Source: Corynespora cassiicola
Lineage: Eukaryota > Ascomycota > Dothideomycetes > Pleosporales > Corynesporascaceae
Direction: 5' to 3'
NCBI GenBank assembly: GCA_022059125.1
Contig: JAEUWY010000004.1
Coordinates: 310,001-374,000 of the forward strand
Length of the DNA: 64,000 nucleotides
This document shows, one piece after another, positions 8,541 through 31,137 of the stretch. Both the position numbers and the translations under genes were made by a program. Under the pieces are notes generated by a model. It ran no database searches, was not told the origin of the DNA, and saw only the letters and a list, made by a program, of their open reading frames with translations. The stretch's first letter is position 1; each line of letters begins with the position of its first letter.

Positions 8541-9432
8541 CTTGTCTAGTTCTTCTGAACGAATATGTGGAGCGATAGACGTGGGAACAACAGTGTTGTC
8601 GTTGTAGCGATGGTAGCGTATCTCCGCGCAGCATTGAGCGGTAAAGAGGGGATAAATGGATCTTGACGTGGAAGTGAAATAGCAAGGCACGAGTGTAAGA
8701 AAGCTGCAAACATCTCCCCAGCCACTCCTTCCATCTTTAACTGACAGCGCTTTCCCTACATGGTTGCTGTAGCCTTCTCATAAGAAAGTGAATGATATCC
8801 GAGCGTCGGATGATCCTTTCTAGCCTTCCACGAACCAGAGATTTTGTGAGCATATGCATACAGTCCCTCCAGCTCAGGTACCTAACGCCGTACAGCATTA
8901 TTGGGCTATTCAAAGGATGCGCTAGACATCTGAGCTGGGAAAAAGACTTATTCGTATTCATATGCAACTCTGATGGGCATTCTGACGTGGTGCATCAAAT
9001 GGCTTACGAGCCACAAGAGAGTCCCAAAGATGCCCGAACGACAGTCCTGGAAGAATCGATAGCGAAGACCTTGGAACATCGGAAGTCCGCTGATTGGACT
9101 GTCAAATTGCCTCTCGTACAAGTCGACTTTAGTTGGCCCGTAAATCATGTTTGCAAGTCAGCAAGCCAGAAGAGTTCCTCGGGACAAATGCGTCAGCACC
9201 TTACTTCAGGCAATAAGATGAGCTGAGCCAAGACCGTCATCACATCCAGGAAAGGGGTGTAAAGCCATCCTAGACCTTCTGCGGAACGCAACTCTGGCGC
9301 GCTACGTCAGCCGACACACTATAATTCGCTGCGCCTCTCCCTCCTACAAGCCATCTAAACACCTCCATCTTCCATCCGCACCAAGACCCTGCATACACTC
9401 ACCCCAAACTCTACAACTCCGCGCCATCCGCG
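8541..9432. other. Intergenic, divergent promoters
   Basis: This is the upstream DNA of the MYND gene (minus) and of the monooxygenase (plus). A 144-codon plus frame at 8792-9226 has an ATG but no recognisable domain, signal peptide or splice structure, and its codon use looks random, so I leave it out. Confidence 0.4.
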
Positions 9433-10778
9433 ATGAAGATCGTAGTCATAGGCGCCGGCCTCGGCGGCCTAACTACCGCTTACGTCCTCGCCCGCCAAAA
9501 CCACACCATCACCGTCCTCGAACAACACCCCTCCCTCTCTGCCCGCGGTGGCGGCATGATGGTGCGTCCCAACGCCTCCCGCTTCGCGTTGTCCTGGGGC
9601 CTGGGTCCGGAGTTCGATGCCATAGCCGACGAATCGCCGACGACGTTGCTGCGCGATTTGCGCACTGGGCGACTCGCGGTCCGCAGGCTGGCCACGGATA
9701 TCTCGCAGTTTCCGGACTGGGGCGTGAAGAGAGACGATATGATGAAGTTTTTGTACCGGCGGGCTGTAGAGGCGGGTGCGAAGGTCGAGTTTGGAGCTAG
9801 GGTTGTGGATTTCGTGGAGGGGGAGAAGGGAGTGGTTATCTTGGGGAAGAATGGGAAGAGTTGGGAGGCGGATTTTGTGGTTGCGGCGGATGGGATAAGG
9901 TCGCAAGTTCGGAGGCGGTTGTTGGAGGCTGAGGGGATGGAGGCGGAGCCGGTGATGTCGAGGAGTACGCATTATGGGATTGAGATACCAGTCGAGGAAC
10001 TTAGGAAAGAGAAGGATGCCGCGGATTTACTCAAGGAGCCGCATTTGACGGTGCATTTGGGGAAAGAGGCTTATGTTACTTCAAGGCTGCATGTGAAGCA
10101 GGGCTTGTGGCTGGGTTTATTCAGTATTCACGAGGATCCGGTTCCAGGGGAGGCTCTATGGAACGAGGTAAGAGCTTATACAGCAATCATAGTATCTAGG
10201 AGAAGTCGAAAACTTACGAAGAGCAGGAAGGCGATATTGTCCGACTCCGATCCTTATTCTCAGCCGTTTGCCCGTCGCTACGTGCCGCACTCGGCATAGC
10301 CGAACGTTGCGATAGATGGAAGATCGCAGAGGTTCCAGATCTACCTCACTGGACTAGTAAGAAGGGGTTCATTATCATCCTAGGCGATGCAGCGCATCCC
10401 ATGCATCCTACTGCCGCGCAAGGGTTTTCGCAGACCATTGAAGATATTGCTGTGCTCGAACACCTTCTCAGGACGCGGCCCCATCTTTCGGTTCCTTCGA
10501 TAACGCGGTACTGGGAAAGTATCCGTCAACCGCGTGTTGAGAAGGTCAAGTTGTACGCGTATGCAAATATGCAATTGTTCTCAGGGCAGTTGAATGACGC
10601 CGTATTGACCTCGGAGAAAGAGCAGCAAGAGAGTAAGAGTGCAAAGAGTTTAAAAGGTGTAACAGCAAGTCCCAGTGCTCCGTATCAATCAGCGGCGTTT
10701 TTGAAGTGGGTATTGGACTATAATGCAGTGAAAGAAGCAAAAAACGGTACCATTGACCAAGAGAAGCCGAGGCTCTGA
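9433..10778 (+). CDS. FAD-dependent aromatic monooxygenase (salicylate hydroxylase-like)
   Basis: Exons are 9433-10167 and 10227-10778; the 59-nt intron is GTAAGA...GAGCAG, phase 0. The product is 428 residues. It belongs to the class A flavoprotein hydroxylases, which use NAD(P)H and O2 to hydroxylate aromatic or polyene substrates. Visible hallmarks are the Rossmann GAGLGG at residues 7-12, the distal VVAADGIRS (DG motif, ~147-155) and the FAD-ribityl-binding GDAAHPMHP (~298-306), in the expected order and spacing. There is no signal peptide or membrane anchor, so it is probably cytosolic. A P450 lies 650 bp downstream on the same strand, a pairing common in secondary-metabolite clusters. 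The substrate cannot be read from the sequence. Confidence 0.9.
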
Positions 10779-13367: not shown

Positions 13368-14237
13368 CCTTGTGTATGGTATGCGCCTTTGGCTAGTGCA
13401 TTCACTTCTGGGTTTTCCGACGGTTACAGGTGCCGTACCAAACATTCTGTGGGTAACTCACGCTATCACCCAGGCATAAGTACAGGCCAAGTATATTTTG
13501 ACCGAATTTATCGATCTAATTTTCATCTGTCACCTAATTTAAAAAAAAAAACCCCTCGCAAAACCAGGCTGCCTGAAACCACAACAATACGGCGACCCGT
13601 GTCTAGCGACCGACAAACAACAGCAGTTGCAGCTGAAAGTGGCTCGCGATTCGTTGATTACGAAAATTATTCATCAATCTATTCAAAACAAGAAGATGAG
13701 GATTTTAGCATATTCTCGAACAACGTGATTACCGAGGAGCATGAATCAATCCTTGGCTACACAAAAAGTTCCTTCGGACCCATTTCAATCTCGGACATAG
13801 ATGATAATAACACCGCAGGGCTAACATCGACCTATAACTCTATATCTGTTACCAAACCAGTCTCATCCATAACAAAACCCTCTGGAATATTGTCTACAGC
13901 GTCAACATTGAGAACCTCGTCGGAATCTTGGAGTACAGTTTACCTAACCGCAAGCGAAACCATAAATCCACCTTTACCAAAGCCTGTAAACATCGGCGTG
14001 ATTGTAGGAGGCGTTTTCGGCGATTCAGATGGCGTCATCTTCCTTGTGATAGGTGCCATTTTTGTTATCAGAAGAACGAGGGTTGGCGGAAAGAATGGTG
14101 GCGGAGAATTTGGAGGGGGTTTGCCAATTTTGGCCCCAGAGCAGGCTAGTGGAGGCGGTGCACAGAATATGAATACCAATACATCGTCTTCTTTGGGATT
14201 GCCGGAGATTGTGAGCTCAGGTCGGACAGTGCGGTAG
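13368..14237 (+). pseudogene. Ser/Thr-rich single-pass membrane protein, 5' end unresolved (remnant?)
   Basis: The frame is open from 13368 to 14237 but has no ATG before the C-terminus. A good branch site and acceptor (TGCTACTAAC then GGTCCAG, ending 13361) sit just upstream, yet in this frame a TAG follows immediately. The protein part has a Ser/Thr-rich ectodomain (~130 residues), a transmembrane segment (NIGVIVGGVFGDSDG followed by VIFLVIGAIFVI) and RRTRV at the cytosolic edge. This is the layout of fungal Mid2/Wsc-like surface proteins. Two Asp residues inside the membrane segment (FGDSDG, where GGSGG-like would be expected) suggest decay. The neighbour at 14631 has the same layout. Confidence 0.4.
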
Positions 14238-14630
14238 GCATATTGATGGACGCACGGCTTTTTCGGGCGCGGCTCTGTCGTTACTATACAGCTGTGTTCA
14301 GGCATGAAAATGATGAGGTAATGCAATTCATAAATTGAAGGCCTTTGCTATGTGTGAGCGAGCACATGTGTTCAAGTGCAAAATCTGTCCTCAGCCTTGT
14401 GTTCGCAAAAGCAATACAGGGATTTCGAACGTCACCATGCAGCCAAATCACTGCTTTACCTTATCATCAGGATACAAAATCTAATTATATCATCGATAAT
14501 GGTTTCACGGCATGGTAAATTTCATTCAAATACAGTGGCCCCCAAATCATACATACAACAGCTATCTGCCACAGGCCAGCGCTAGCCTTTAGTCATTTCT
14601 TCTTTTCCTCTGCTTAACAACTGGATCATT
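14238..14630. other. AT-rich spacer between two membrane-protein genes
   Basis: I see no gene or clear motif here. Confidence 0.4.
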
Positions 14631-15266
14631 ATGACTTCGGTTTTTAGAAGTGAAATTGTTGGGACTCTTGATAGTTCGAATTCTCCCTTGGTTGTGACAT
14701 CGGTTCAGGAATTCATCACTATTATCGAATCGAATGATGCTCCGCCTTCCAGCTCAATTTACCTCTCACAGGGTTCCTTGGCTTACACTATTCCAAACAT
14801 TTTTTCAGGTGATTCCATACATAGATTTTTATCTATTTTCATCTTTTCAAGGTTAACAAGAATAGATTCTGAAACAATATCGGCGCGCACATTTACAGCT
14901 CAAACCGCAATTCAGACCTCGTCTACATTAGATAACCGCCAGTCTTCCGTAACCTTGCTAGATCTAACAGGCCCTTCGGCATCGCCTACGAATACAGATT
15001 CGAACCATATCTCTAAATCTGTGAATACTGTAGCAATAATAGGTGGTTTCATAGGAGGTCTCATTATCATTGGAATCGTTGTTGTCACAGTCGTGTGGAT
15101 TATTCGACGCACACGCGTGAAGAACAAGTTGAGTCAAGTTGATGAATCAGCAGCAGTGCTACCTGAGCGTTTAACGAAGGCGATCGATACTGGATCTCCA
15201 GATTATGGGCATGCGGACGGCACGGTAAGGGATCAATCGGAGCTGGTGACGGTGAGACCTAAGTAG
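14631..15266 (+). CDS. Small Ser/Thr-rich single-pass membrane protein, paralogue of its neighbour
   Basis: The ATG at 14631 opens 211 codons. Residues 1-120 are Ser/Thr/Ile-rich with no obvious signal peptide. A long hydrophobic segment (VAIIGGFIGGLIIIGIVVV then TVVWII) at ~130-158 is followed by RRTRVKNK, the same border motif (IRRTRV) as in the gene just upstream, and then by a short cytosolic tail. GTGATT at 14810, after TTTTCAG, could be a donor, so the exon structure is not certain and a 5' exon with the signal peptide may be missing. The layout suggests a cell-surface sensor or anchor of the fungal Mid2-like type; the function is unknown. Confidence 0.45.
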   Translation: MTSVFRSEIVGTLDSSNSPLVVTSVQEFITIIESNDAPPSSSIYLSQGSLAYTIPNIFSGDSIHRFLSIFIFSRLTRIDSETISARTFTAQTAIQTSSTLDNRQSSVTLLDLTGPSASPTNTDSNHISKSVNTVAIIGGFIGGLIIIGIVVVTVVWIIRRTRVKNKLSQVDESAAVLPERLTKAIDTGSPDYGHADGTVRDQSELVTVRPK

Positions 15267-15707: not shown

Positions 15708-17711
15708 ATGTATCGCCAGAAATTAATCCAGGGTATCACACCTTTGTTCAAACATGCTTGTTATAAGCCGCGTTCTACTAGCAATGGTTTGCAATTGTTC
15801 GGGCGCTCAATTGTCTCATCACGACGGTATGAAAATTATGCTACAGCACGGGTAGTAGCAAAACCATCGGAAACTGCAATGGAACACTCTGAGCGATGCC
15901 TAGAATCTGATCCAAATCAAATTGGAATGACGGGCGGACAAATATTCCACGCGATGATGCAAAAGCATGGCGTCCGAACTATCTGTATGATACAACCCAT
16001 GTTTCCCATTGCCCAAAGACCTGCTAATTCATTCAATCAAACAGTTGGGTATCCTGCTGCCCTGCCGATGTTCGACGCCATTTTCAATTCTCCTCACATC
16101 AATTTCATCCTCCCGCGACACGAGCAAGGGGCCGGACACATGGCCCAAGGCTATTCCCGAGCAACAGGAAAACCAGGAGTGGTCCTCGTAACATCAGGAC
16201 CAGGGTGTACAAACGTCATTACACCGATGCAGGATGCGTTGATGGACGGCACACCGCTCGTCGTAATCTGCGGACAAGTCGCAACATCGCGTATAGGCTC
16301 GGATGCATTCCAGGAAGCAGATATCGTGGGCATAGCGAGCGCATGCTCGAAATGGGCGGTGACGGTAAACAACGTATCCGAGCTTTCGCAGCGGATCGAC
16401 GATGCGTTCGAGATTGCGACATCTGGACGGCCTGGCCCGGTGCTGGTTGCGGTTCCGATAGACGTTTCGGCTGCGAGGTTGACCAAGATAACGCCGACTA
16501 GGAAAGCTGTGCTTCCTCCACTCGCCCTGAAGGCAGCTGAGAAACGCAACGAGGGTCAATTGAAGCTTTCTATATCCCGTACGGCTAAGCTGATCAACAA
16601 TGCAAAGAAACCGATCATATTAGCAGGTCAAGGGGCACAGGCATCAACCAGCGCCTTAAAGGCGTTGAGGAGTTTGGCACTAAATGCTCGAATTCCCGTT
16701 ACAACCTCGCTCATGGGACTAGGCGCCTTTGAAGAGAATGATCCGCTATCGCTTCATATGGTCGGCCTCCACGGATCAGGCTTCGCGAACAAAGCCATTC
16801 AGGAAGCGGACGTGGTAGTTGCTCTAGGCGCCCGATTCGACGACCGAGTGACGGGAGAAGTCACCAAATTCGCTCCAGCAGCGGGAAAAGCTGCCAAGAA
16901 CGGATCTGGAGGCATAATCCATTTTGACATCTCTCCCAAGAATGTGAATAAAGTGGTTCAAGCAACAGAAGTGGTGATTGGAGATTTGGGAAATACGCTG
17001 CCAATGTTGCTGCCTCATATCAACACAAAGGTTCCACGTGACGAGTGGCTTTCGAAGGTCCAAGACTGGAAGAAGCGGTATGACTGGCCGCATAAACAAT
17101 TTGCGTCGAATGAAGCGCGAATCAAACCGCAAACTGTGGTTTCCCTCCTCTCGAAGATCACAGACCCCTTCAAGGACCGCACTATTATAACGACTGGCGT
17201 GGGACAACACCAAATGTGGGCAGCGCAATACTTTCGCTGGCGCTACCCACGCACTTTGATTACCTCTGGAGGCTTAGGTACTATGGGGTTTGGCTTGCCA
17301 TCTGCGATTGGTGCAAAGATTGGTCATCCAGAATGTGAAGTGATCAATATTGATGGGGATGCATCATTCTGTATGAGTCTGACCGAGTTGGCAACTGCGT
17401 CTGAAAATGGTATCGCCGTCAAGACGATCATTCTCAACAACAACGAACAGGGGATGGTGACTCAAATACAAGATCTTTACTACAAGAGTCGATATGCGCA
17501 TACACATCAGAAGAATCCGGATTTTGTCAAGGTTGCATCATCGATGGGGGTAGATGCAAGAAAGGCCGAGCGACCAGACGAAGTGGAAGAAAAGCTGAGG
17601 TGGCTTCTGGATACTGGGGGTCCTGCGTTGTTGGAAGTTATGGTGGACGCAAAAGTACCCGTTCTGCCTACTGTCCCTTCGGGAAAGGGGTTACACGAAT
17701 TCATGTTTTGA
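15708..17711 (+). CDS. Divergent acetohydroxyacid (acetolactate) synthase catalytic subunit, Ilv2-like
   Basis: Exons are 15708-15984 and 16045-17711. The 60-nt intron (GTATGA, TGCTAAT, AACAG) has a length divisible by three and would read through if ignored. The 647-residue product joins pyruvate to pyruvate or 2-oxobutyrate, the first step of branched-chain amino-acid synthesis, in mitochondria; residues 1-60 are a basic Ser/Arg-rich leader. Catalytic Glu is kept (RHEQGAGHMA, ~118), as are GDASF and LNNNEQGMV for ThDP-Mg. Sites bordering the herbicide pocket differ from yeast Ilv2: the Gly-Gly before Ala117 is lost (FGYPAALP), P192 is Ala172, K251 is Ile231, M354 is Leu334, W586 is Ile567 and F590 is Tyr571; A200, D379 and V583 are kept. 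This looks like a second, inhibitor-insensitive copy rather than the housekeeping enzyme. Confidence 0.92.
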   Translation: MYRQKLIQGITPLFKHACYKPRSTSNGLQLFGRSIVSSRRYENYATARVVAKPSETAMEHSERCLESDPNQIGMTGGQIFHAMMQKHGVRTICMIQPMFPIAQRPANSFNQTVGYPAALPMFDAIFNSPHINFILPRHEQGAGHMAQGYSRATGKPGVVLVTSGPGCTNVITPMQDALMDGTPLVVICGQVATSRIGSDAFQEADIVGIASACSKWAVTVNNVSELSQRIDDAFEIATSGRPGPVLVAVPIDVSAARLTKITPTRKAVLPPLALKAAEKRNEGQLKLSISRTAKLINNAKKPIILAGQGAQASTSALKALRSLALNARIPVTTSLMGLGAFEENDPLSLHMVGLHGSGFANKAIQEADVVVALGARFDDRVTGEVTKFAPAAGKAAKNGSGGIIHFDISPKNVNKVVQATEVVIGDLGNTLPMLLPHINTKVPRDEWLSKVQDWKKRYDWPHKQFASNEARIKPQTVVSLLSKITDPFKDRTIITTGVGQHQMWAAQYFRWRYPRTLITSGGLGTMGFGLPSAIGAKIGHPECEVINIDGDASFCMSLTELATASENGIAVKTIILNNNEQGMVTQIQDLYYKSRYAHTHQKNPDFVKVASSMGVDARKAERPDEVEEKLRWLLDTGGPALLEVMVDAKVPVLPTVPSGKGLHEFMF

Positions 17712-17804: not shown

Positions 17805-19526
17805 TCAACCAATCGACAACTTCATACCCAACCCCGCAATTCTATCCTGAATTCCGCCCAAGATCTCACTTGCCCGGTCCTTGAACTCAGCTTCGTACTC
17901 CAATTCAGGCCTTTCCGTGCCTCCAACACAGCTCCAGCTCGACGCCCTCTTCGGATCACTGATACCCATATATTTGGGCTTCCCGGGCCACGCGCATAGC
18001 TGTCGCGTAACAAGCTCGCCTTTCTCATTGTAAGTTTCCGCATCTATCGCCTCAGGCGCCTCATCCTTCTCGACCCAGTCCACCAACGCGCCCAGAGGAT
18101 CAGAGGGTACAGGCCCATTTCCAAACGCGCAGTGTCCGACACCCGGGGCAAGGAAGAGGCGGTAAAACTTGTCGACTTCGTTGGCGCCTCCCATTTCGCG
18201 CTCGACGCGCTGGCGGTAATCGACGGTAGCCTGGTAGGGAATGAGTTCGTCATTGATGCCGTGCCAGGAGAGTAGCTTGGTGCCTGCATCTCGCAGAGCT
18301 CGGAGATCGGGGTCGTCGGTCAAGATGGACCGGCCGAACTCGGTCAGGGCATGGACCCACAGCGGCCAGTAGTCGCTCTCTTTGATAGAGGATAGGTCGT
18401 ATTTGGGATTGCGGAATATCAAAGTCTTGATAAATTCTCCAGAGACAGGCATTGGGTTTTGCGATCGTATATCGTCGGCTGAAATGGATATGTTTGCAAT
18501 CATCGAGTGGTCGGTGCCATGGTCGATTCCGTACCATAGAGACTTTCCCCAAGGCGCAGTGGGTCCTGTTGCAATACTCCATACAGTCTCGGCCATGGAA
18601 GGCGTTACCTTTTGCTTTTGCCCGTCGCATTCGAATTCTTCGCCGATCAAGTCTCTTGCGTCGAACTGACATTCGTCGGGGTCAATGATGACGCCATCCT
18701 TAAATCCGTCGATCATGTCGCATGCTTCCAAGACCTTGTTGCGGAAAAATGAAAATTCGCAGTTCGAGATGTATTCGTTGCGCTCTTTCATAACCAACTG
18801 GGGCCAGAAGGCACCCATAGCGAGCGAGACGAAATCGAGGGCGGGAGCAGCGGCCATGATGCCATCCAAGAGCTCGGGGTGTTTTTGTGCCATCAAATAG
18901 CCCTGTCTTCCTCCTCCAGAGCATCCATTCCAGTACGTATGATGTGGCTTCTCACCATAATACTGCTCGACAATACTCTTACCGACAAGTACTTGCTCGG
19001 GAAGACTCTTGGTGGCAAAATTTTGCCATAGGTTCCAATTGATCGTACGGTCGGGGTTAAGAACCCAATCTAAACTGAGCCAACTAGTCTCGTCGTGGCC
19101 CCCATCTGTCGTTACACCGGCATAGCCTTGTTTAACGGCGCCAGCGACCATGCCGAAACTCATGCTCGTGGAAAAGCCTCCACCTCCAGTTGCTTGCAAA
19201 CGGCCATTCCATTCATCTCTTTTTGTTGGAAGCCACAAGCGGACCAGAACATCGTCGTCGGTACCAATGTGTGTCATGTGGATTTTTACCTCGCAAAAAT
19301 TGAGGTCTTTCTGTCCAGGTAGCACTCCCATTGAAGGCACTTCATGATTCTCCTGTGTGGTGGCGGAGATGGATAGTATCTTGATTCCATCGAGTTTCGG
19401 ATGAGAAAATGCCGATGCATCGCATATCGGATCTGGTGGTGATGGTGATGATGATGGTTCCGCCTCTCTTTTGGCGTATGTGCCACGTAACGCGAGCAGT
19501 GGCAGTAGCAGGCCCACGCGAAGCAT
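17805..19526 (-). CDS. Secreted tannase / feruloyl esterase family hydrolase
   Basis: The product is 573 residues, from the ATG at 19524-19526, with a cleavable leader (MLRVGLLLPLLALRGTYA). The family cleaves ester bonds of gallic or ferulic acid in plant polyphenols and cell wall. The nucleophile motif NGCSGGGRQG lies at ~200-209 (Ser ~202), with the Cys next to Ser that pairs with the Cys in VGHCAFG, the CS-D-HC arrangement of this family. INDELIPY supplies the Asp and GHC the His. Length fits the family. It is convergent with the AHAS gene, only 94 bp apart, with no overlap. Substrate (tannin versus feruloyl) is undecided. Confidence 0.9.
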   Translation of the reverse strand: MLRVGLLLPLLALRGTYAKREAEPSSSPSPPDPICDASAFSHPKLDGIKILSISATTQENHEVPSMGVLPGQKDLNFCEVKIHMTHIGTDDDVLVRLWLPTKRDEWNGRLQATGGGGFSTSMSFGMVAGAVKQGYAGVTTDGGHDETSWLSLDWVLNPDRTINWNLWQNFATKSLPEQVLVGKSIVEQYYGEKPHHTYWNGCSGGGRQGYLMAQKHPELLDGIMAAAPALDFVSLAMGAFWPQLVMKERNEYISNCEFSFFRNKVLEACDMIDGFKDGVIIDPDECQFDARDLIGEEFECDGQKQKVTPSMAETVWSIATGPTAPWGKSLWYGIDHGTDHSMIANISISADDIRSQNPMPVSGEFIKTLIFRNPKYDLSSIKESDYWPLWVHALTEFGRSILTDDPDLRALRDAGTKLLSWHGINDELIPYQATVDYRQRVEREMGGANEVDKFYRLFLAPGVGHCAFGNGPVPSDPLGALVDWVEKDEAPEAIDAETYNEKGELVTRQLCAWPGKPKYMGISDPKRASSWSCVGGTERPELEYEAEFKDRASEILGGIQDRIAGLGMKLSIG

Positions 19527-20291
19527 CTTGTGTTTTTTCAAGGATGTGAAAAAGATCCAGGCAAGTTTGAGGGTAATAAAGCGAAGGGTCGTATTGTAGT
19601 GTGTGTGCAGAAGTCGAAGGCGGAGGTTGAACTTGTAGGATTGAGGGTCGGCTACTCAAATCGACTCATCCCGCGCTAGCTAGAATCCCTGCTCAGTCGA
19701 ACTACTACATTGGCCTCAACGGGCTAGCGCATGGCATGGGCATCGATTTTGTTTTTGAAAATCTGCCTTGTTGGCGATATTAATAGCTGCTCAGATGAGA
19801 TGATAAAGAAGCAGCTGTACGTGCGGTGGTTTGTCATATTAGTTAGCTTGGCGTGTTCTGTCAACCCCACATTCGTGTCCCGCCACCCTGGGAGGAAATA
19901 AAATCATAGGTAGCCTTATAGACAACGCCGACATCCAACGACTAAAGGAGTTCATAACTAGACATAAGAAATTCTAAAGTCTCGAATTGGAAGACATGTG
20001 TTTTTTAACCCTTCCATAAGCCAAGGCCACGGTTGCCTGTAGCCTCGTTTCCATCTGTTGGATCTTTCTGCACGGGCCTCCTAGACCAAAGAGACATAAA
20101 CTTCGAGGACTATGGACTTAAAAATAAGATTCAAGATTCAATGAGCAATTTGCCTTTTTTTGTCCTTCGCGTACATCATAATGTGTCATTTGCCACGTGA
20201 TCAATTCGTGTCAGCTTACATTAACAACCCCCCAATCATCAAAAAGTCCAGCGCACAGTAGACTACATGGAGATACTCGCCACCATCCGTA
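19527..20291. other. Intergenic
   Basis: This is promoter DNA of the tannase gene and 3' DNA of the cupin gene. No gene or repeat was recognised. Confidence 0.45.
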
Positions 20292-25704: not shown

Positions 25705-26807
25705 TGAAATTGAGCTATCGCTAATCTCCCAAGCCATTACCACCAACCTTATTGCTTCTTACCGGATGTATTTTCGTGGATAAACTCTCGTGTCACTTTG
25801 CTATGGATTGTATGTGGTGTCGTGAGCAGCATGTTGTCGAATCGGCTGAGGCTGTAACCCGAAGGACAAATCTACTGTCCATACCAGGAACTCTATGTTT
25901 AGAAATCCCCTCAAAGCGAACCAGTAATGTATAATAGGGCATACGGACATCGGGCTGCCCAGTTCATGTGATACATAGCCTGATTACACATTGCTCGAGC
26001 CTTGTTTGCAGCTGAGATGTCGACGTAAGACAGGATACTTTCGAATCTGCCTTGCGATGGCGAAACATGAGTCAAGCATGTTTGATTGGGCATGAGATAA
26101 ACTAGAAAATATTGGTGTATTGGTGGCGACGCTGGCAACCGCAAAGATATTCCGTTTCCGGCGCCTGTGTTTTCGCTTACTAGCTTATCTTTCTACGTAT
26201 TATTTTCTTTTCCCGATGCCAAGTGTGGTTGTGTACCCACATGATTTGCCGGAGAACTGTATAGAAAGTATAATTTTAGACTACTCCCAGCTTGAATATT
26301 ATGCATTTGGCTTGTAGATTATATAGTAACACAAAATTTGAAAGTCAGATATACATTTACGTGTCTTTGGTGAGAGAAAGCACTTAACCAGTGTTATTTG
26401 CACTGATGAATCAATCTGGTCGGATGTATTTTCTCGTCGCTTCTTGAAACTCAGGGCGAAGCCACTTGCTGTACAGTCATGATTTTGGGGCCAATACACA
26501 GATCTAGATCTGCGGGATTTAATCACCATGGAATATGCATACTCGTAGTGGCTCTCACAGTCGGAAAACACGAACATTAGCCGGAGGTGGCGTTCGAACA
26601 AGAGTCTGGAATCGGTTACCCCAAGCGAGAATCATTTTGGTGATAAATGTGGAACCCTGGAAGCCAATTTAAATAGGTAGCAAGGCTCTTCATAGCAAAG
26701 AATTTTATCAACGCGATATTTAACTCCTCTTTTCATACTCATCATTTATTTGATCGAAAAATCAATATTGACACTATATATTACCATATCTACCATACAG
26801 TAAAACC
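25705..26807. other. AT-rich intergenic region
   Basis: There are 1.1 kb between the GH92 gene and the NLR gene. AT-richness rises toward the NLR start (TATATATT-like sequence at ~26770-26790, a plausible core promoter). No gene was recognised. Confidence 0.45.
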
Positions 26808-29800
26808 ATGTACCAAATTAAGGAAGAGAATCTGGCTCCCACCGCGGATTCTGTATCTGATTACCAAGCAAGCCTCTCAGCCATTACTACCATTCTCAAT
26901 TCTGGTATTACGGTTCTGGCCAGCCCTGCCGATGAAGTAATTCAACTTGACATCATCGCCGTACACGGTCTTTTAGGATCTCCAGAGGGTACATGGACGG
27001 CAGATAATGGAAACATGTGGCTCAAACAGTTGGGAGAAGAGCTCCCTTTTGCGAGGATCTGTACATTTGGATACGACTCCAACGTCTTCACTAGCTCTCT
27101 CATGGATATAACAGCCGCAGCGACGCTCTTACTGAACGAATTGAATCGAGTACATGCAGAATTCGGTTCACAGAGGCCAATCATGTTCATTTGTCACAGC
27201 CTCGGTGGCATAGTCGTCAAGAAGGCCCTTACTATAGCTCATCACCAGACACCTGACTTTTACGAGAGAGCTCTCTCTGCTATCAAAGCAATCGCCTTCC
27301 TGGGTGTGCCTCATGCAGGTTCCAGCATGGCTGGTCCAGCTTTCCGCTTGGCGAGCCTCAACCCCTTCCGCTACTTGTTCCCCACCAACAACAGGCTTTT
27401 GAACCTTCTGCGAACAGATTCTTCTGAATTGCATGAGATCTCAAGGTTTTCAGAGAATAGGCTGAGCTCGATGAAGATTCTGAGTTTCTATGAGACGAAA
27501 ATGACCAATGGACATCAGGTACGAACCCCCACACGAGCAATTGCTTTTTCGAGCTACCTGTGGTAACTGACAATATATTTCAGATTGTAGACCGAGATTC
27601 AGCTAGGATCCACACGGAGAAATTACTTCCAGTTGAAGCAGATCACATTTCAATCTGTAAAGTTGAAGAAAAGAATGATTCCCGCTGGAATACCGTCGTC
27701 GAGCCTATAATCAGACTTGCCAAGGAAACAGTATATTCGATGGAGAAGAAACATCACTCTGGTATGTAAATGTTCTCAAGTTATCTTTTTTTACTCATAG
27801 AACCCCAGAAAGCTCTTCCATGCACAATGACAAGTCAGTGATTACTCAACTCATCTACTCGGTGAATGCCGCAGATACCATAAAGACCATGGGAAAACCC
27901 ATTCAAGGGTCTTGCGACTGGATTCTGGGCCATCGCGAATTCGTCCAGTGGCTCGATGGAGACCGTGGCCTGCTGTGGATAGAAGGCACCCCCTCGTCTG
28001 GTAAAAGTTATTTGTGCAAGTATCTCGTCGAATACTGCCAAATGCACAACGCACCCACGAACACATGTTACTTCTTCTGCAACTCTAACCTTCCAATGCA
28101 CATCACAGTCAACTGTATCATTCGATGCATTATTCATCAGCTCTTCGTCCAGAATCCAGGGCTTTTCAAGCACGCACTGCCAGCATGGGAGGTAGAGAAG
28201 GAAAAGATGATCGAGTCCAACAGTACATTGGTTGAAATTTTGGAGGCTTGTTTGAATGATCCGAATCTTGGACGTACTTTCATCATTATTGATGCTCTGG
28301 ACCAATGTTCGGATGAGAAAAACATTCACTACCTCGACTGGATTACCTCGGTTCTAGATCGGAAAGCAGAGGGAAGTACTGCTCTCCGAGTGATTATTAC
28401 AAGCCGCACAGGATCTCTTACACTACCCCTCGGTTTCAACCGTTATCGTACTGCTCTTTCATCCTCCAATATTGCCAATAGAAGCCACCAGAAACGGAAC
28501 AAATTCTTCCTCCGACTGGATGATGAAGACAAGACAAAAGAAGGCGTAGAATCATACTTTAGGAACGGCGTAGAAAACCTCGGCAAAGATGTGGGAACCA
28601 CCGACAGCGTCATTCGTGCGTTCAGGAATCATTCTGTGACTTCATACCTATGGGCATCTACGGCTTTAAAAAAGCTGTCCCAATGCAACCCACTGTCATT
28701 GGGAAAGGCCGAAAACATACTCTCATCACTTCCACGCGGACCCGATAGCATGTACAATACCATCTTCAACTGGGTCTCGATAGAAAACCGCAGCGCAGTC
28801 CGAGCCATACTGCAGATTATCGTCGCCGCCAATGAACATGTCACTATTGATGATCTTAACTGGATCTGCGCGGTTCAAGAAGCTGAAGAATGTAATGAAG
28901 ACTTGGAAAACCTGAAGAAATTCAAAGTCGATAGGAGCGAGATGATTCGAGACTTGTGCGTATTTTCCATCAAGTCCAACAAGGTCGAACCCAGTCACGC
29001 ATCTTTGATCGAGAAAGTGACGAATATACCGAGCAACCCGGAGAGTTCTCCAATGTGGTACCACATTACCATCCAGGAATCAAAGCTTGCAATTCTCAAG
29101 TATTGCGTTTTGCGCCTTGACTTGTTCGACAGGTCTCTCAAGAGTGGTGCAGTTGATAGAGAGTCACTCTCATTCCTACCGTATACTCTTAAATACTGGC
29201 ATTCTCATTTCTCGGATATCCAACAAGATGTGCATCCTACTCTTTTTGAGAAGATCAAGGGGTTTTACACCAAACCAGAGCTTTTCAAGTGCTGGCGTGA
29301 GGCTTACAACATGTTCCGCCAAAAAAAAGAACGCGAAAGGATCTTCCAGTCTATATCCGAGGCCCAGAAAATGACCATGAGTACCGAGTTGGTTTTGAAT
29401 GAACTAATTGCAGAGAGTCGACTCATAAAAAGAATATCCACTGCATCAAAAGAGTGGATGTCGTTGCATTTACGGCACTCATCTATTTTCTTCAGCTTAC
29501 TCACTGATAACTCGCATGCTGATTCACTGATCAGAATCAATGAGAAGCTAGAAGATGGATGGACACCTCTCTGTATTGCAATTGATTCCGGTGATGTGGC
29601 AGTGGTTCAGAAGCTCCTCAATCAAAACGGTATCAATGAATCGCCGATGGAAGATGGCAGAGTGGCGCTGCATCTGGCAGCTGATGCAGATGATTTTCTC
29701 ATTGCTAAATCGATCATCGAAAATTGTGTGTACTCCGATATCGATGTACGCACAAAGCCAAAATGCCTTACGCCTCTGCATATCGCAGCCGCCGGTGGGA

Positions 29801-31137
29801 AGAGGTCTATTGTTGAGTTGCTTCTCACGAAAGGCGCGAGCCATGCGCTTGTAGATGACACTGGCTCAACCCCATTGCATCTCGCTGCTGCCAATGGGCA
29901 TCAAGATACATGTGCTCTCCTCATCAGAAATGGATCTGCTTGTCTCGCACGTGACGAGAAGGGTAGAACCCCACTTGTTGTTGCGGCAGAAAAAGGGCAG
30001 ACAGCTGCTGTCATCTTCTTCCTTGAAGATGCGTCACCGGAGAACAGACCTGATGATCACCACAACATTCTCCATGCTTCAGTACGCTCGAATAATCCAA
30101 TAGTGATTGAGAAGTTGCTCGATCGCGGCTTAAGCGCAACCGAAAAAGATGAACTCGGGCTTACCCCATTCGCCTACATCGATTCATCATGTGAAATACA
30201 GATCATCGAGAGATTTCTCAAGCAAGGCGCCGACATAAATGAGCAGGGTAAAGATGGATTGACCTTGATTCACCGCTTAGCTGCTTCCAATATGGTGGAA
30301 AGTGCGAGATACCTGCTCGACAAGTACTCTGAGCGGATATTAGTCGAAGCGCGCGGAAGAAGTGTTTTGCATTCTGCTGTTTTCGGGGGTGCACAGGAGA
30401 GCATGCTCAGGTTACTTGTCGACAGAGGGCAGGAAACCAATGCTGCGAGCAAAGATGGTGACATGCCGATACACGTCGCAGTAAAGGCCTGGAGAAGCCA
30501 GAATACGGTCAGAATCTTGCAAGAGCTGGGTGCTAATATTGATGCAAAAAATGGACTGGGTGAAACCCCCCTGCAAATGGCGGTACAGAGACAAAATGCG
30601 GGCCTCGTCGTACACCTCGTGCGCAACAAAGCAAACCCCACAGTCATGCGGGAAGACGGTGTGGATATATTAACACTGGCAGAGATGTCTTTTCTCTTAA
30701 GATTCCACCAGCACCGAGAAGCCCGACTAGACTCGTATCGGTACTCAAGTTTCCTAATGACGCATGCTCCAGTTGAAGACGACAACTTATATCAGAAGGA
30801 GGATTGTACGGTAGGAGAAGTGGATCTAATGAAGATCCGCGATATCAAAGAGGCTTTATTGGGATGCTTGAAAGGCCTGCGTCTAGCAGAGAAACGGCAT
30901 GGATTTGAGCTTCAGATCACCATGAAAAGAATGAACATTCCGCAGGATGATACTCCAGCACCACAAGTAGCTGAAAAAGCCGAGGCAGCTACAGAACAAG
31001 CATTACCATCAGCACCGATAAGGGGGGAAGGTGAGGAAGGAATAGATGGTAGCAATCCTCCACCAGAGAAAAGAGTGGAATCGCCTGCGGACGGGGTAGT
31101 AGACGCCGGCTCAAAAGTTACTGCGGACAGCTCATGA
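26808..31137 (+). CDS. Fungal NLR: alpha/beta-hydrolase - NACHT - ankyrin repeats
   Basis: Exons are 26808-27518, 27584-27761 and 27809-31137, about 1,405 residues. Intron 1 (65 nt) is phase 0. Intron 2 starts GTATGT at 27762; only the second AG (27807-27808) keeps the frame, since the nearer TAG at 27798-27800 gives a stop. Domains: a lipase-like alpha/beta hydrolase (residues ~45-215: DIIAVHGLLGS, nucleophile ICHSLGGIVVKK at ~132, FLGVPHAGS); NACHT NTPase with P-loop GTPSSGKS (~356-363) and Walker B TFIIIDALDQ (~454); a helical linker; then about eleven ankyrin repeats (~880-1265, e.g. TPLHIAAAGGKRSIVELLL); and a polar tail. This is the tripartite effector-NTPase-sensor plan of fungal NLRs acting in non-self recognition and regulated cell death. 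The ligand is unknown. Confidence 0.9.

Follow-up and report, generated by a model that had tools for sequence, protein, structure and literature searches.

A second gene for acetolactate synthase (ALS, also AHAS) lies in the window, by which we mean the whole 64,000-nt stretch analysed (C4:310001-374000). Its sequence shows an intact though divergent paralogue of the mitochondrial catalytic subunit of ALS, belonging to a small group of proteins in which the substrate/inhibitor channel is remodelled. Rather than a fresh copy of the housekeeping target, it would seem to be an old paralogue whose channel has been refashioned. The likeliest single reading, which we put forward tentatively, is that it specifies an inhibitor-insensitive ALS standing outside any biosynthetic cluster.

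Structure of the ALS paralogue

The gene occupies positions 15708-17711 of the window (forward strand) as an intact reading frame of 648 codons, stop included, that stays open through the intron as well; the spliced protein has 647 aa (Table 1). Since the 60-nt intron is in frame and has no stop, the list of open reading frames gives a single 700-aa frame. The GT-AG stretch between 15985 and 16044, which a preliminary description of this DNA had proposed as an intron, was confirmed, and we infer that it is spliced, since splicing at this codon (HI/F-GYP) is also possible in the housekeeping ALS of contig C2. The TPP_enzyme_N, TPP_enzyme_M and TPP_enzyme_C domains all scored above the Pfam cut-off when the unspliced frame was used as query. 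Also as described earlier, the catalytic Glu of the RHEQ motif, which we take to be yeast E139, and the GD-x-N motif binding ThDP-Mg are preserved. The N-terminal leader, with 8 K/R against 1 D/E in the first 45 residues, is likely of the mitochondrial type.

The nearest protein is an acetolactate synthase from a C. cassiicola of the Philippines (P0002; 98% identity over 85% of the query). GC3 is 0.51 in the paralogue and 0.77 in the C2 copy. The TpA/ApT index (0.52, against 0.65 in the window) is not raised, so that the gene bears no sign of repeat-induced mutation.

Table 1. Positions in the window of the ALS paralogue, its altered residues and neighbouring genes
Feature	Position	Strand	Remarks
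FAD-binding monooxygenase-like gene	9325..10778	+	neighbour, listed for context only
Cytochrome P450 gene	11374..12928	+	neighbour, listed for context only
Exon 1, ALS paralogue	15708..15984	+	residues 1-92, from the start codon; basic leader at the N-terminus, likely mitochondrial
Intron, 60 nt (inferred)	15985..16044	+	GT...AG, in frame, without stop
Exon 2, ALS paralogue	16045..17711	+	rest of TPP_enzyme_N, TPP_enzyme_M, TPP_enzyme_C; stop codon
Shortened loop GYPAALP (GYPGGAILP in other ALS)	16047..16067	+	G115-G116 missing
Catalytic Glu codon	16122..16124	+	RHEQ; kept
Ala at yeast P192	16281..16283	+	not diagnostic of the paralogue group
Ile at yeast K251	16458..16460	+	1jsc alignment; likeliest HB-35018 attachment site in other fungal ALS (cited part of PMC12947280)
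Leu at yeast M354	16767..16769	+	diagnostic of the paralogue group
ThDP-Mg binding motif GD...NN (GD-x-N)	17355..17441	+	kept
Ile at yeast W586	17466..17468	+	diagnostic of the paralogue group
Tyr at yeast F590	17478..17480	+	diagnostic of the paralogue group
Tannase/feruloyl esterase-like gene	17808..19655	-	neighbour, listed for context only; transcribed towards the ALS paralogue (convergent)

The genome has a separate housekeeping ALS

The PF00205 profile matches nine places in the genome (44.35 Mb in 23 contigs). When both ALS proteins were compared by tblastn with eight of these loci, two ALS genes emerged, one on C4 and one on C2, about 59-61% identical to each other; the remaining loci tested gave about 23-35% identity or no match, and the C16 match (E 8e-7), the ninth, did not enter the comparison. 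The C2 gene (L002, C2:4060523-4063951, at about 4.061 Mb) carries the GQVP and QWQ motifs and is the conserved second Ilv2 that the preliminary description had suggested seeking. Its existence means that the C4 paralogue is not the sole ALS gene. A search for a duplicated regulatory subunit returned a single Ilv6-like locus in the genome.

The paralogue resembles housekeeping Ilv2, be it the C2 copy or the ALS of A. fumigatus (9yjz), in its three Pfam TPP domains, catalytic Glu and ThDP motif, and shares with the C2 copy the position of the intron. It departs from housekeeping Ilv2 at M354, W586, F590, K251, the GYPGG loop and further near-invariant columns. The C2 protein itself has a Gly at the A200 site, as do 2 of 243 reference rows, itself included.

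Residue changes in the channel

Residues were numbered after yeast Ilv2 (1jsc chain number + 57). In this alignment the paralogue carries P192A, K251I, M354L, W586I and F590Y, and all five replacements reported earlier were thereby borne out. The GYPGGAILP loop is two residues short, as had been noted; the gap aligns with G115 and G116 rather than with G116 and A117, the latter being retained. Residues A117, A200, Q202, D379, R380, M582 and V583 are preserved, as are the TTGVGQHQMWAAQ and GVGQHQMWAAQ stretches. We take G116, A117, P192, A200, K251, M354, D379, V583, W586 and F590 to be the positions at which resistance arises in yeast Ilv2; a literature search for this ten-site list found no source. 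Six of the ten differ in the paralogue (G116, P192, K251, M354, W586 and F590), not seven as first counted, and A117, A200, D379 and V583 are kept.

Three changes set a small group of ALS apart

To see how these changes are distributed, we used an alignment of 259 rows made up of the paralogue, the C2 copy and all 257 proteins listed by three protein searches. The searches were seeded with paralogues, and the spread of the group is known only among the matches listed. Within these, P192 is replaced in 154 of the 252 rows with a letter in that column, Val (125 rows) being commoner than Pro (98 rows); at K251 the Lys is missing from 20 of 254, including a group that keeps W586. Because ordinary-looking ALS are among the rows so changed, neither position is diagnostic, and the use of all ten sites as diagnostic was rejected. 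Val being the commonest residue there among the matches listed, P192 alone is also unfit as a resistance marker.

The other three positions behave differently. Among the matches listed, M354 is changed in 7 of 258 rows, F590 in 8 of 259 and W586 in 9 of 259 (Trp in the other 250; Ile in the C4 paralogue), and the three changes coincide in exactly 7 of the 259. These seven are the C4 paralogue, P0002 (C. cassiicola), P0009 and P0150 (both source lgn), P0138 (source jgi), P0008 (Dendryphion nanum) and P0149 (Pyrenochaeta sp. DS3sAY3a), with the common signature M354L/Q, W586I/L, F590Y. The preliminary description had named the same substitutions in the housekeeping Ilv2 of all relatives as a finding that would speak against its reading; this holds in part, for P192 and K251, in ordinary-looking ALS. 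The trio was seen in the seven paralogue rows only (among the matches listed). Dendryphion nanum also has an ordinary ALS (P0134) with M354, W586 and F590 in place. Outside the group, Trp586 is missing from P0202, an odd sequence, and from the otherwise housekeeping-like P0003.

Within the group, K251 is kept by P0008, P0149 and P0150, and P192 by the same three and P0138. The GYPGG loop has its full length in 190 of the 191 rows that cover it among the matches listed, the C4 paralogue being the one short row; GYPGG is kept in P0008 and P0149, and the loop falls outside the coverage of the other four members, the P0002 model starting downstream of it.

To assess how far the changes concentrate in the pocket, columns were scored as near-invariant when 97% or more identical in 250 reference rows; 11 such columns belong to our own, partly provisional list of pocket columns. 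All seven paralogues depart from the reference at twelve near-invariant columns: besides M354, W586 and F590, P0002, P0008, P0009, P0138, P0149 and P0150 share with the C4 protein changes at nine more. Changes common to all seven affect 3 of 11 pocket columns and 9 of 259 others (p = 0.009). Taken alone, the C4 paralogue is changed in 4 of 11 pocket columns against 33 of 258 other near-invariant ones (one-sided Fisher p = 0.049), and the other six, taken singly, give p values from 0.07 to 0.18. The enrichment is modest, and these tests count columns in related sequences. From these figures, the pocket appears to be favoured, yet the whole protein has drifted.

Ancestry and constraint

A maximum-likelihood tree was built from 54 of the 259 rows. 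A branch with support of 100/99 separates the seven paralogues from the 46 reference rows and P0003; P0149 and P0150 are placed apart from the other five paralogues. The housekeeping ALS of the same genome falls among other Pleosporales ALS, away from the C4 paralogue. The tree is unrooted, its bootstrap had not fully settled, and the long branches of the paralogue group leave its place unsure; the old age of the group is accordingly no more than probable. The C4 protein is under constraint: compared with P0002, one of the 248 near-invariant columns is different, against 12 among the 297 variable columns (p = 0.008).

The neighbourhood holds no recognizable core biosynthetic gene

The 6.4 kb upstream of the paralogue contain the P450 and FAD monooxygenase genes; downstream come the tannase-like gene, a GH92 gene, an NPHP3-ankyrin gene and a phosphate transporter gene. 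Immediately upstream (13368-15266 in the window) are two adjoining frames with Ser/Thr-rich stretches and no Pfam match, which from their sequence appear to have a single membrane segment. Frames in 26772-31137 of the window encode an esterase of the DUF676 type, an NTPase of the NPHP3 type and ankyrin repeats, reminiscent of fungal NLR (heterokaryon-type) proteins.

Six families of core enzymes were searched for, with all first-look candidates scored: ketosynthase (KS), condensation, UstYa, terpene synthase, DMATS and isocyanide synthase. None gave a match within 1 Mb on contig C4. On C4 the ketosynthase match closest to the paralogue lies 2.1 Mb away, at 2.446 Mb, and the closest UstYa match 1.2 Mb away, at 1.509 Mb; condensation, terpene synthase, DMATS and isocyanide synthase have no match anywhere on C4. 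A crude motif scan of frames longer than 100 aa in C4:230-424 kb, which motifs split by introns can escape, found no KS, A-domain, NRPS carrier, DMATS, UbiA or AT motif. Three DDxxD-like strings in this interval lie in short frames and were read as chance occurrences. The AMP-binding search, in which 14 of 97 candidates were scored, gave one match on C4, at 884 kb (557 kb from the paralogue); with that share of candidates scored, NRPS-like genes may exist outside C4:230-424 kb, as may synthases of the chlorflavonin type elsewhere.

Genome-wide, condensation and KS matches come no closer to each other than 89 kb, so that the search brought to light no PKS-NRPS hybrid like the one behind harzianic acid. 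The PKS/NRPS gene that the preliminary description had proposed to look for in an extended assembly appeared neither as a core match near the paralogue nor as a hybrid elsewhere (AMP-binding: 14 of 97 scored). The six families, the motif scan and the scored AMP-binding candidates thus gave no cluster with a core enzyme around the paralogue. Two ketosynthase pieces with identical scores (C6:231150-232087 and C20:2747812-2748749, the latter about 9 kb from the contig end) are a recent duplication or redundant assembly.

Relation to known ALS copies

Among papers on ALS in Corynespora, none was seen to deal with this gene, to judge by titles and the first lines of abstracts. Extra ALS copies have been used in genome mining for fungal ALS inhibitors as signposts to producers (cited parts of PMC12616698 and PMC12947280). 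According to the cited part of PMC12616698, ALS copies occur together with a core enzyme in the clusters of inhibitor-producing fungi: those for harzianic acid, chlorflavonin and pterrespiramide/HB-35018, and the further, unexplored families 107, 39 and 296. The same part states that PtsB gave yeast resistance to pterrespiramide A and that omission of ptsB made no clear difference in an A. oryzae host. The C4 gene resembles PtsB and the sdt-cluster ALS (pterrespiramide A/HB-35018, Aspergillus) in being a second ALS copy in a fungal genome. Compared by description, not by pocket residues, it is unlike PtsB, which sits in a PKS-NRPS cluster, in having no core match near it and a genome with no PKS-NRPS hybrid found. 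A likeness likewise exists to the extra ALS of the harzianic acid and chlorflavonin clusters, taken in those producers as the resistant target (PMC12616698 and PMC12947280, parts cited); these are cluster-borne, and the C4 gene is set apart from them by description rather than by sequence.

As to the residues, the cited part of PMC12947280 has HB-35018, an inhibitor of fungal ALS, bonded at the equivalent of K251 as its likeliest attachment site and lying near the equivalents of W586 and P192 and, by the offset of our analysis, of F590, Q202 and R380. Mutations of Pro192 are given there for 75% of resistant yeast clones, with P192S shifting the potency of HB-35018 only 4-fold. The paralogue has also lost the Trp whose replacement makes plant AHAS herbicide-resistant (W574L; yeast W586). 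That enzyme is described as fully competent, with Ki values between 38-fold and 35,000-fold higher (cited part of PMC9188596). According to the same part, W574L is a single mutation of a housekeeping gene under herbicide use; the C4 gene is a natural paralogue with many further changes.

What the paralogue may do

An inhibitor-insensitive ALS appears likeliest because loss of W586, M354, F590 and K251 would remove the main inhibitor contacts and loss of W586 is compatible with activity. The paralogue would still make acetolactate. Natural ALS inhibitors could not seat in its channel, which offers no Trp586 stacking partner and no Lys251 nucleophile and has Met354 and Phe590 replaced. Synthesis of branched-chain amino acids would then be kept running while the housekeeping ALS is blocked, and the paralogue, alone and outside any cluster, would be a resistant target for inhibitors that come from the environment or are made by genes elsewhere. 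Catalytic activity, insensitivity and protective role are all deduced from sequence. A broader proposal, which we regard as rather doubtful, is that an old Pleosporales ALS lineage, unlinked to clusters, has acquired a generally inhibitor-proof channel (M354L/Q, W586I/L, F590Y, and in Corynespora also the loss of K251 and even of the GYPGG glycines) and by itself shields its bearers from environmental inhibitors, a form of target-replacement resistance kept by non-producers.

The main rival, itself on the unlikely side, is a neofunctionalised carboligase, its channel remodelled for other substrates or for acetolactate/acetoin. The Trp favouring 2-ketobutyrate, which presumably sets that preference at the W586 position, would have been given up, and insensitivity would be at most a by-product. 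Changed substrate use is expected to produce the same channel changes, nearly as well as insensitivity does. Plant W574 contacts the first pyruvate, W574L raises KM about 4-fold and loss of the Trp changes KM and kcat (cited part of PMC9188596); moreover, nine of the twelve near-invariant columns changed in all seven paralogues are outside the pocket list, and the group sits on long branches away from other ALS. Against a new reaction speak the unchanged ThDP motif, catalytic Glu and GVGQHQMWAAQ stretch, and the surroundings, where only the FAD monooxygenase, P450 and tannase-like genes were recognised and no pathway for another product is evident. The inhibitor-insensitive reading has to face a different difficulty in the loop: two glycines are lost from GYPGG, uniquely among the 191 loop-covering rows (matches listed), which could damage catalysis and casts doubt on activity. 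It is further weakened by the occurrence of the P192 and K251 changes outside the group and their absence from some members, by the lack of a linked inhibitor-producing cluster (among the families and candidates scored) and by the modest pocket enrichment. Should the short loop abolish activity altogether, the gene would be an impaired or decaying copy, a relic or a protein with a non-enzymatic role. We judge this improbable, given a full-length frame open even through the intron, the retained catalytic residues, differences from P0002 that avoid near-invariant columns and the unraised TpA/ApT index.

The preliminary description had cast the gene as a duplicated target protecting its producer, as in the harzianic acid system. 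This view survives in part, in that a second ALS exists and the inhibitor pocket is changed (with the modest enrichment given above), and the clusters named above provide precedents (PMC12616698, part cited); it lacks support in that no cluster was found and the gene stands apart from its own genome's ALS in the tree. Self-resistance to an inhibitor made by this fungus would have to involve an unlinked or non-canonical cluster, possibly with the neighbouring P450 and FAD monooxygenase genes. The six core families have no match nearby, the scan of C4:230-424 kb showed no core motif and the genome yielded no PKS-NRPS hybrid. As the defining neighbour, a core biosynthetic gene, did not turn up in these searches (AMP-binding: 14 of 97 candidates scored), we consider self-resistance quite improbable.

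If intact, pocket-changed ALS paralogues exist outside clusters, extra ALS copies will also give false leads when used as signposts in genome mining, and moulds could already possess an intrinsic insensitivity to antifungals directed at ALS.

Other altered ALS in the alignment

Two further departures from the usual pattern were seen. P0003 (source lgn), the housekeeping-like ALS mentioned above, has Ser192, Arg251, Glu379 and Leu586, with five near-invariant columns changed, Trp586 included. A separate group of 13 rows (source lgn; P0152, P0154-P0158, P0161, P0164, P0165, P0172, P0208, P0234 and P0256) combines R192, I251 and E379, yet keeps W586 and F590. Two of its members were placed in the tree, among Sordariales ALS on a long branch; the group is possibly another naturally inhibitor-altered ALS.
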